Below are positions 96-6,000 of a stretch of 64,000 nt of DNA, in pieces. A program made the translations under genes and the position numbers. How positions within the stretch are numbered: position 1 is the stretch's first letter; each line of letters opens with the position of its first letter. The notes beneath the pieces were generated by a model. The model had not been told where the DNA came from. It was given only the letters and a program-made list of their open reading frames with translations, and did not search any database. Origin of the DNA: Cornus controversa (lineage: Eukaryota; Streptophyta; Magnoliopsida; Cornales; Cornaceae); NCBI GenBank assembly GCA_026545225.1, contig CM048845.1:2436501-2500500 (forward strand), read 5' to 3'.

Positions 96-3000
96 ATGGC
101 GAATTTGTATGTGAAAGCTGAGCCTCCGACGGATCTGAACAGGAACACGGAGTGGTTCACGTACCCAGGAGTGTGGACGACCTACATACTCATCCTATTC
201 TTCTCATGGCTCATTGTCCTCTCCCTCTTTGGTTGCTCCCCTGGCATGGCCTGGACCGTCGTTCATCTCTCCCATTTTCTTGTAAGCTCTTTTCTTTTCA
301 TTTCCTTATATCCTCTCTCTCTCTCTAGGTTTGAGAATTTTTCTTATTCTAATTCATGCTTGATCTGCTTCATGAGTTATTACTATTAATGTTATTATTA
401 CAGTTACGAGGTTGTGATTTTTGATTAATGAATGTTGGATTGTGTTTCTCAGTTTCTGAATATTCAATAATTGGTTATGGGTGAGTTGACTGTAGATATT
501 TTGCTACCATTATCATTAAATTTGATTAGGGTTTATGGTTCATAGTTTTTTCTTTTTTCTTTTTTTCCCGGATTGGTGTTTGTGGTTGATAGTTATGAGC
601 TGAGAATTCCTTTCTTTTTTTTTTTGCCGCTGATACTAAAATCACTAGTCATTTATTTTCATTGGTTTTGTTGATTGGTGACAGAAAATTACCGGATATT
701 GGTATTATTTTGTTTGTCAAGGATTATTTATGGAGTAACTGAAATATGATTTTTAAGTTACCCATGTTTTTGGGAAGGAGAGGCTCCTGCAAAGTGGGAG
801 AGTGAGAACCATGTAGTCTTTTAGCTCACAAAAGTGCCTTGCGGGAGTCGCCTCCTCCTAAGCACTCTCTCCTCTCTATTAGTGTAGCAACTCCCAAGGC
901 TTACCGATAGTTAGAGGTGTGAATTTTGGAGAAGTTTTCTGTTATTCAGTCGTAAAGCATGTAAATCAAATTACATCCGTAAAAGCCTATATATAGGCCC
1001 TAACAAAGACTAACCTACCTCTGAAAAGAAAAACTAAAAGAAATAAAATATTCTCTGACACCCTCCCTCAAACTCACGATGTGACAATGAGAAGCATCGA
1101 GAGTTTGTCAAGAAAGAAAACGAAAACGCATAATTGAATTGCGTAGAAGATACATATGATAAAGAAATAGTGCCAAGTTACTATAGAAGAAATTGCCAAA
1201 ACAGCTGGTACTGCTACGCAAACTGAGTAGAGACGATGCTGTGAAATGAGAGAAGAGAAGTGAGACCGATGATGCTGTTGTAATTTCTGCTTTTGCGATG
1301 CAATTTGAACAAAAGAAGAAGAAGAAGAAGCAATGCGATGCAAACAAGTTGTTGCTGCTATCATAAATGTTTTTGCAATTTGAGAGATGAAAAGAGAAAA
1401 GAAACGTGGTGTGATGATGTCGATGGGTTGCGATGCGTTGTTGCAATCAATGCTAAGAGATTCAAAAAATGCAAAGTCCGGATGCAGACAATGCGTCACG
1501 GTTGAAGAAGATGCAAAATTAACGATGCTTTGTGGGAATAGAAAGAATCAGCAAGATTGTTGTTCAAACAGAGAAACAATCAATTGGGCAAGGCTGCTAG
1601 TTAAGATGCTGCAAAAAGGTGTGAATGCTAACTGATTGCTAACAGAAAATTGACACAATTGCGACTTGATGCAATTTCAAACAATTACAATTCCCCAATG
1701 TGATGCGAACCAATAAACCAAGATCAGAAAAATGGTGCAAATTCGATTTTGCTGCAAATTTTGCAAATAGATATGCAAACAAATTGCAATTTCATCTTGA
1801 TGTTGTCTTTGCAAGAAGCCAAAGAAAATTGAAATGTGACACTTCCGTTCTTCTCTTATGCAAAGAACCCAAAACTGAAAAATCCTGTTGCAAAAGAAAT
1901 CACTGGAGAAGAGGCTATTACGAATCGTCAAAGTAAGATAACAAGGGTTGCAGTAATGCAAAGAGAATATAGAGGGAGAAATCGCTGTAATGTAGTAATT
2001 TTGCAAACAAACACAAACTGAGATGCGATTGCGATAGGCTGTAATGAACTTCAAGCTGCCAGGAACAATGCAATTACGGCTAAAAGAAATTGAAGAAGAG
2101 AGAATCCAATAGAAACATTGAGCGAACAGAAATTGGTGATGCAAAATCAAACAGAGATGAGAGAGAAGAGAAGATGATGTGATACAATCGATTGCAATGC
2201 GATTTGATGCAAACAATGTTGCGAACAGAGAGAGAAAGTTGTTGTGAACACAGAGAGAGAAGTTGCGAACACAAAAATTGCAAACACAAGGGATTGTGAT
2301 GACATCACAATGCAATTGCAGTTTCAAATTAGGATTGGCAGAGAAGCTGAGGTAGATGTGTGATTTGAACAAAGGAGAAGAAAGATGACTAGGCTGCAAT
2401 GAACTTAGGGTTTGTGTGATTATGTTGAATTGTGAACTTGCAAACAGATTGTTACCAACACTTAGGTTTAAACTAAGATGTGACAAACAGGGGAGCTAGC
2501 AAACAAATGTTAACTAATTGCGAACTTATTGCAAATAAATTGTGAAACTGAGGATCAATTGTGAATAATTTGTGAGAGTCGAGATGTCGAATACTGCTAT
2601 AATTAAGGACAAGACTGCAATTGCAATGGCAAAGAGAAATAGTGACTGCAATGGCATGGACGAACAGGGACTGGCTCTGCATCTTACAAACTGGTCCTTC
2701 ACGATGATGACATTGAAATCACGGCGGAGAAGATTGTTACATTGGTAAAAGCAGTAAACGTGAAAGTAGAGTCGTATTAGCCGAGTCTCTTTGCTAAGCT
2801 GTTGGAGAAGAGGAATATTGAAGATCTCATCATGAACGTTGGCTCTGGTGGAGGCAGTACTGCTGCAGCGGCGGTTACTACTCCGGCAGGTGGTGCTGCT
2901 ATCGCCCCTGCCTCTCCGGTAGTTGAGAAGAGAAACAGAAGAAGCAAAGAGTTGCGATACTGTGATTATGCCTGCGATCTTGCAATTATTGTAGAACAAA

Positions 3001-6000
3001 GATGCGTTGCAATTTGCAATCAGGTTCAAGAAGAATCTGCGATTTTCTTTTCGAATTTTTGATTTTCTTTTAGGGTTTAGGGTTTAAACCCTAAACTCTT
3101 AGGGCCAAAATCAAACCTGCTTTGATACCATGTGAATTTTGGAGAAGTTTTCTGTTATTCAGTCGTAAAGCATGTAAATCAAATTACATCCGTAAAAGCC
3201 TATATATAGGCCCTAACAAAGACTAACCTACCTCTGAAAGGAAAAACTAAAAGAAATAAAATATTCTCTGACAAGAGGCACCATCACGTATTGATCCGGT
3301 GTGTGATCATGTAAGGGAGGCATTTTTCGAGGAAGCAACAAGTGATGGTATAACAAGAACTTCCAATTCTTGTGAGTTGCGAGGGAGAGATGGTGGGGGA
3401 TTTTCATTGTGTTACACATAAACTTGGAAAGTATTTCTCATGTTGTAATCTGCAAGTTTTTAGTAAATCATTTTCTTGCCAGATTGCCCATAGACATAGG
3501 CATATTCCAAACCATATAAATTCTTATAGTTTAGGGTGTGGCTTGATCTTCTTTTTTCCCCCTACTTTGCTTAATTATACATTTGTTCATGGTCTGTTAG
3601 TTTTTGCCACTTCTAATTCCTGAAAAATGGTATTAAAGTTTGTGTTTCAAGTGCAAGGTGTTGAACTCTTGAAAGGTACGATATGCACTGTGATTAATGA
3701 TAATTTTGATCTCACTTTCCGAATTGGATTTAGACAGTTACAAGTTCACTGGCAAAGGTACTTATCAGGGAAAAATAAAAGTTTCACTGGCAAGGTCTAT
3801 ATAATGGTTTCAAATCGTGCTTAAGTAGTCAGGAAGGGAGTTTGGACGGAACGTGTATAAGTTACCGGGTTGCAAAATAGTGGATAAAGAGACTACTCTA
3901 GTGCATGTAAGCAAATGGTTAGACTTAAAAGTTTAAAAGCCTCCAAATAAAAATGTGGAAGCAGGTATACCACCTTAGGGGAGGTGCACATTATAGAAAA
4001 TGAAGTGGTTCAAGTAGGAAAGTTTGGAAGGCATCAAACTTTGCTATGTTTTAAGCTATAAGGGGGTGAATTGGTGGTTTGGAGATTGTTAGAGTTGCTA
4101 CAAAATATCACAGTTCACCTAATAAGTTGTTCATTTTCTTCTAGATGAAGAGGCATTCCTAGTTTTTGGTTTGTTGTCTTAAGATATGGGAAATGAGCTT
4201 CAAGACAATAGTTGTGGTTCACCAAAGTGGGTTTGGTTCTCAGAACATAAGAGGGTCTCTTCTTTGATACACTTGATAGGGAGTTGTAGTTGTATTATTA
4301 ATATGACAGGAGAAGGGTTTTCGTTACACCAAGAGTGCATCTCTCACTCTACAAGGGAGTTTCTCTTCACCGTTTCTTATAAAGATTTAGTCCAATCTTC
4401 TTGGGGTGCTTTCTTGGTGTTTTTAGGTTCATAAAGCTATTATGAGCATTGTAGTTTATTTATTTATTATTTTTATTTTTAAGGTTGATGAGCATTGTAG
4501 TTGTAAGAATTGGATTGTGTGAAATTCTTGTAGGTAGCTAAGTACATAATCTCTCTTGTTGTAGTCTCATCCTTTATTAGTAAATTACTTCTTCCCTAAT
4601 TACCTGTTGATGCATACTAAGTAATCTCTTCTTTTTTGTTTGTGCTTATTTTTCTTTTATTTTGACTTTACAGTACAAGTTATTTGGCTTCACTTGTTTG
4701 AAGGCTTTCTGCAGAGTGTCTGTTTTTCTTTTTTCTTTGAAGTTTTTTGTTGCTGACAAGGACAACTAGCAGCGGGTCGCTGCTCTCCCTCCCTCTTTCT
4801 CTCTCTCTCCATACACATACACACTCACACAACAAATTCTTTCTTCAATAGAAATGCAGCTTAGATATGTGTTGTGCTCATATTGAGTTCTCAGTACTGA
4901 GTGATTGAGTAAATATATTTTATTGAAAACAGAATTCTATAAATTTACGGAAAAAGTTTAAAAGGCAATATGACCCCGTAGCTGTGACTCCAAACTGGAG
5001 GCAACTTCATCTCACTTAGATCTTGTGCCTTTTAATATTTGCTTCTACTCTTTATGTGTTCATTTGATAGGTATATTACCACCGCTGAAGGTGGTTGAGT
5101 GGCAAGGCTTTCAAACTGCCTCAAATTGGCTAATCACTCCCCCCCTATGTTGTTTACTAAACTCAAAACACTTCTCTACTTGTGTGATGGACTAACCAAT
5201 GTTTATATAGACATCAATTTGTAGTCAAAACTTCCATTCAATTTTTAAATTTCCTGATAGTTAGGTTCTAAACTTCCTGAACAGTTGCAATAGAATTTTG
5301 AAGTAACGTATAACAATTTATATATTTTTTTATGCATTTTGTCTAGGTGCCTGTATGTTCTTGTATTTCACTAATAGCAAGTATGTTCTTGTATTTCACT
5401 AATAGCAAGTATGTTCTCCTTCAGGTCACATATCACTGCTTTCATTGGAAGAAAGGAACACCATTTTCTGATGACCAGGGTATTTACAATAGGTTGACAT
5501 GGTGGGAGCAAATAGATAATGGCAAGCAGCTCACTCGCAACAGAAAGTTTCTAACAGTTGTACCCGTAGTCCTGTAAGTAATATTTTATAACACAAGTCT
5601 TTTGAATTGGATACTGAAATTAAATACATGAAGAAAATACATTTTGATAACATTGCGATTGTGCATTCATATTGGTTGAAAAGGTACACGTTTTAGCAGT
5701 GATTGTCCCCCTTTAGAAATAGATGTTGGAACTAGGGCTGCAAATGAACCAAGCTGAGTTTCAGTTTGTTCGTGCTCGGCTTGGGATCCTGACGAGCTAA
5801 AAAGGCTGAGCTCAGATTTGGCTCATCATTATTTTGAAAAGCTTGGGCTCAGGTCATTTAATAACAAAAGTCATTCTAGCTCGATATAAGCACGTTTTCA
5901 AGATCACTTTGGCTCATTCATGAACTTGTACAAACATAAATGTTTATGAACATGTTCACGAGGCTATGTTCATGAACACATGCGACCCTACACGAGTTTA

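Follow-up and report, generated by a model that had tools for sequence, protein, structure and literature searches.

A 64,000-nucleotide stretch of the Cornus controversa genome (GCA_026545225.1, contig CM048845.1, positions 2,436,501 to 2,500,500; hereafter the window) contains a small LTR retrotransposon with part of a gene for 60S acidic ribosomal protein P1 in its interior. How did a host sequence come to lie inside the element, in the orientation opposite to it, and has the resulting chimera moved as such? We consider it very probable that the element took 234 nt of spliced P1 mRNA, in antisense, at or just after reverse transcription, and that the chimera has since reached at least five loci by transposing as a unit.

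The element and the borders of the P1 piece

As a sequence-only reading of the locus had proposed, the element is bounded (Table 1). Its LTRs are direct repeats with the ends TG...CA, the sole difference between them being one transition in 143 bp, and the target site duplication (TSD) AGAGG is found on both sides. The primer binding site (PBS) follows the right LTR and the purine tract (PPT) precedes the left LTR, both on the minus strand; the element therefore reads on the minus strand, and the P1 fragment was correctly described as antisense to it. We take the PBS, TGGTATCAAAGC, to be of the iMet type. In three of the other chimeric copies of the element (see below) the PBS is TGGTATCAGAGC, and in the fourth, L014, it is one base off TGGTATCAGAGC.

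Table 1. Features of the element, the captured P1 piece and the host gene (positions in the window)
Feature	Position	Strand	Remarks
First coding exon of the ORMDL-family host gene (element in its intron)	96..281	+	Ends set by eye
TSD AGAGG, left copy	913..917	.	
LTR retrotransposon with P1 piece, 2,356 bp, apparently non-autonomous	918..3273	-	LTR pair, TSD, PBS, PPT
3' LTR (element orientation), 143 bp	918..1060	-	LTR comparison
Polypurine tract GAGTTTGAGGGAGGG	1061..1075	-	Adjoins 3' LTR (left LTR)
Captured P1 piece, 234 bp: 33 bp of exon 1 and 201 bp of exon 2, intron 1 absent	2691..2924	+	Antisense to element
Exon 1/exon 2 junction within the piece (ATCACG/GCGGAG)	2723..2724	+	3,390-bp GT...AG intron here in the C6 donor
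Primer binding site TGGTATCAAAGC	3119..3130	-	Directly adjoins 5' LTR (right LTR)
5' LTR (element orientation), 143 bp	3131..3273	-	142/143 identical to the other LTR
TSD AGAGG, right copy	3274..3278	.	

Without the P1 piece the element is 2,122 bp long. It has 17 ORFs of at least 40 aa, eight of which were taken into a Pfam scan. No retroelement domain (gag or pol) was found in these eight, and they accordingly held no pol domain order by which to tell Copia from Gypsy; one of them gave a sub-threshold match to P1, the source of which is the captured piece. No autonomous partner was found, and four ORFs from L032, a relative of the element on C9, gave no Pfam match. This relative (L032:824-8736) is split by another repeat-flanked element, with repeats of about 485 bp that are 92-96% identical. 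The window element is apparently non-autonomous, with no genes detected, and the proteins for its movement are presumably supplied in trans.

The element lies in the first intron of an ORMDL-family gene, between coding exons 96-281 and 5425-5573, and is antisense to this host gene. The two exons, when joined, matched PF04061 in Pfam with an E-value of 4.2e-38. A short tandem repeat of 28-bp units occupies positions 5338-5417 of the same intron.

The P1 piece matched PF00428 on the plus strand (Pfam, E 1.5e-15) and covers codons 13-90 of a P1 gene on C6. That match, together with 95% DNA identity to exon 2 of the C6 gene, rules out a chance resemblance, and the gene fragment recognised in the sequence-only reading is real. 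A genome search yielded 15 relatives in which the left flank of the piece is matched and the piece itself is not. In an alignment of 14 of these (L015-L028) with the five chimeric copies, the flanks are continuous at the insertion site in all 14 relatives; in the fifteenth (C3:76770399-76771542), just 10 bp separate the matches on either side. The continuous flanks of these insert-free relatives place the borders of the piece at 2690/2691 and 2924/2925. The limits given in the sequence-only reading, 2676-2936, need to be corrected to these.

The piece has a blunt left junction; on the right, P1 and the element have GAG in common, which leaves about 3 nt of uncertainty in the end. This 3-nt match could be due to chance. 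None of the element bases at the insertion point is duplicated and none is clearly lost, the loss being at most about 3. Most relatives have a further base 10 nt left of the piece, which is missing from all five chimeras. The piece contains no poly(A) tract and both ends of P1 are missing. Retrogenes are recognised by a poly(A) tail at the 3' end and by direct repeats on either side (PMC5664825); neither was found for the piece, which is internal and without duplication.

Donor, common origin and age

When the genome was searched with the piece, seven places were found: the five chimeras, exon 2 of the C6 P1 gene, with 96% DNA identity, and a paralog on C8, with 79%. A protein search added further P1 genes on C3 and C7. 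The window piece is identical to the C6 gene at 222 of 234 positions (12 differences). Compared as spliced sequences over 241 sites, the window piece and C6 show 13 differences, one of them within the right-hand bases common to P1 and the element; for C8, C3 and C7 the difference is 27-33%. Judged by these sequence comparisons, the donor of the piece is the C6 gene, whose three exons form an open reading frame. Intron 1 of the C6 gene (L009:1519-4908) holds three copies of a 99-bp repeat. A second copy of the last P1 exon (C6:39345240-39345293; 83% match, weak, E 3.5) is present about 1.2 kb downstream of the gene's own last exon.

An intron is present at the site of the junction in all four P1 genes compared (3,390 bp and GT...AG in C6; 98 bp in C8, 338 bp in C3 and 113 bp in C7). 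It is absent from the piece, in which exons 1 and 2 are joined exactly, and we conclude that the piece comes from spliced P1 mRNA. Capture through mRNA, for which the sequence-only reading had named the loss of a parental intron as the check, is borne out by the donor and its three paralogs; the evidence of splicing consists of one junction, and the piece stops before intron 2. The exon 1 part (33 bp) has 3-4 differences from the donor. The missing intron rules out capture at the DNA level, in the style of a Pack-MULE or a Helitron. Read-through transduction, which calls for an adjoining element at the donor and the same sense, does not fit either: the piece is interior and antisense. Among the 40 of 246 candidates scored in a whole-element search, none gave an element match beside the C6 donor.

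The five chimeras, one on C1, two on C3 and two on C5, carry the same piece at one position. Their TSDs match in four cases (AGAGG in the window, CATGG in L014, ATATA in L013 and TATATA in L011), those of L013 and L011 sitting in AT-rich sequence; L012 has a truncated 3' LTR (right LTR) and no TSD. An unrooted tree was built from the interior, without LTR and piece, of 20 copies (five chimeras and 15 uncaptured). The chimeras form a clade with a support of 0.990, which joins the uncaptured copy L027 with a support of 1.000, and the four chimeras other than L014 form a clade of their own (1.000). An uncaptured copy closer than L027 may exist, the whole-element search having scored 40 of the 246 candidates. 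The piece splits off L014 in the same way as the element tree does: at four sites of the piece the other four chimeras are changed, and L014 has the base of the donor and of the three paralogs. The single clade, together with the matching TSDs in four of the five copies, indicates that the chimera transposes as a unit, as the search for further copies suggested in the sequence-only reading was meant to decide.

The rates of 1.3e-8 and 7e-9 per site per year used for dating are assumed and are values for other plants. LTR distances of 0.007 (window), 0.036 (L011), 0.015 (L012), 0.014 (L013) and 0.022 (L014) give insertion ages of 0.27, 1.39, 0.58, 0.54 and 0.83 My, respectively, at the higher rate, and of 0.50, 2.59, 1.07, 1.01 and 1.54 My at the lower rate; the date for the window is loose, with one difference over 143-bp LTRs. 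The capture is bracketed by the split from L027 (p 0.079-0.090), which it follows, and the split of L014 (p 0.042-0.044), which it precedes. Dividing halved p by the rate, this corresponds to 1.6-3.5 My at 1.3e-8 or 3.0-6.4 My at 7e-9. A second, rough estimate makes use of the 10 differences between L011 and the donor over 234 sites. Two of these are placed on the donor side by the paralogs, in one case just by majority, and eight changes in 234 bp translate into 2.6 or 4.9 My with a wide error, which agrees with the tree-based range. The window insertion is young and the capture is older, before the split of the five copies. Dating by LTRs, as had been envisaged, works for the insertion in the window but not for the capture.

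The P1 frame is broken in three of the five inserts, by a TGG to TAG change in the window, a gain of 4 bp in L013 and a loss of 17 bp in L014. In L011 and L012 a frame of 138 aa runs uninterrupted through the piece; of the ten codons in L011 that are not those of the donor, nine are nonsynonymous. These sequences would indicate no coding role for the piece; in L011 and L012, where the frame stays open, it may have one. The RNA of the element, if transcribed, would be antisense to P1 mRNA; the longest exactly complementary stretch measures 67 nt in the window copy and 91 nt in both L011 and L012.

Entry of the piece into the element

The spliced origin (at one junction), the donor, the insertion point without clear loss or duplication, the single origin and the transposition as a unit are observed; the step of entry we infer from the orientation and the junctions alone. 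The source would be the middle of spliced P1 mRNA, 234 nt of it. Entry would have taken place during or just after reverse transcription, with element DNA as the substrate and in antisense orientation, either through a second-strand switch onto P1 mRNA or through the joining of a piece of P1 cDNA into a break in element DNA. Transposition as a unit would later have carried the chimera to at least five loci of today's genome, including the one in the ORMDL intron.

Orientation bears on the choice between these routes and copy-choice during first-strand synthesis, in which reverse transcriptase leaves element RNA for P1 mRNA packaged with it and later returns. A 2026 review (PMC13317346) puts forward a model of this kind, with a switch between two unrelated RNAs that are packaged together, and abnormal template switching is also proposed in PMC1950507; a spliced piece, inside the element and without a poly(A) tail, would be in line with copy-choice. 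However, first-strand copying of a packaged mRNA would give a piece in the sense of the element, which the antisense P1 piece does not fit, and two independent jumps are not expected to resume at exactly the next element base. We therefore regard first-strand copy-choice as unlikely; with the piece in antisense, entry is better placed where element DNA is the substrate. A spliced source and a free orientation would also fit a LINE-type P1 retrocopy that landed in the element by target-primed reverse transcription, but this is very improbable, since the piece lacks a poly(A) tract and both ends of P1, and the element bases next to it are not duplicated. Hardly credible at all is a spread of the piece among the copies by independent captures or gene conversion. 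The piece does have the same ends in all five, yet there is one insertion point and one clade, four copies have TSDs of their own, and shared changes are nested in both piece and element.

End joining of a piece of P1 cDNA into a break of an integrated or extrachromosomal copy of the element differs from our best explanation in the entry step only. It would leave the orientation free and agrees with the absence of clear loss of element bases and with a join that is blunt on one side and has about 3 nt shared on the other, but it requires free P1 cDNA as well as a break in a copy that later transposed. We regard it as quite possible, if somewhat short of probable. It is also possible, and we put this forward more tentatively, that reverse transcriptase left the element cDNA in second-strand synthesis, copied P1 mRNA and returned end-to-end without loss of a base. 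The near-lossless join fits end joining as well as end-to-end template jumping, and nothing in the data separates the second-strand switch from joining at a break. If the second-strand route is true, it would represent a path of capture distinct from ordinary first-strand copy-choice, and the transcripts of the element would be natural antisense RNAs, exact over up to 91 nt, against the mRNA of a ribosomal protein.

Relation to known captures

When an LTR element has captured a host gene, the end product is often all that is known. Here, one genome keeps the intron-containing donor, a close relative without the capture, the precise point of insertion and the chimeric copies, among them L014, an early-branching chimera that retains donor bases, beside four others. 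With this complete record in one genome, orientation and junctions become usable as evidence on the mechanism of capture, and the case is a direct test of the first-strand copy-choice model.

The element resembles TRIM elements in its short LTRs and in that no coding capacity was found in it. TRIM elements have a total length of about 1 kb or less; at 2,356 bp (2,122 bp without the piece), the window element is longer.

A literature search found no on-point report of the capture of an acidic ribosomal protein gene by an LTR retrotransposon, and, by title and abstract, none on LTR captures in opposite orientation. Template switching between elements is described for the Triticeae (PMC1950507). 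For rice, sorghum and maize, a survey that started from annotated genes describes genes captured by LTR elements (PMC3726574); the likeness lies in host sequence between LTRs that is spread by transposition of the chimera, and the words orientation, antisense and intron do not occur in its main text. The 2026 review covers TRIM and template-switch cases as well as Bs1 of maize, which is likewise an LTR element with partial segments of host genes (PMC13317346). Bs1, however, made three captures and its chimeric gene is transcribed and translated, whereas here there is one antisense capture, known from sequence alone. LTR-retrotransposon-mediated retroduplication, in pepper and other plants, places spliced host mRNA inside LTR elements, and about 72% of the retroduplicated NLRs of pepper are in non-autonomous elements (PMC5664825). 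The intron loss by which such cases are recognised is found here as well, in an element that also appears to be non-autonomous; but the pepper cases concern NLR genes, some of them functional, whereas ours is an internal antisense piece of 234 bp with the frame broken in three of five copies. Host gene capture by LTR elements is already known in plants, and the present case is another, unusually well documented one.
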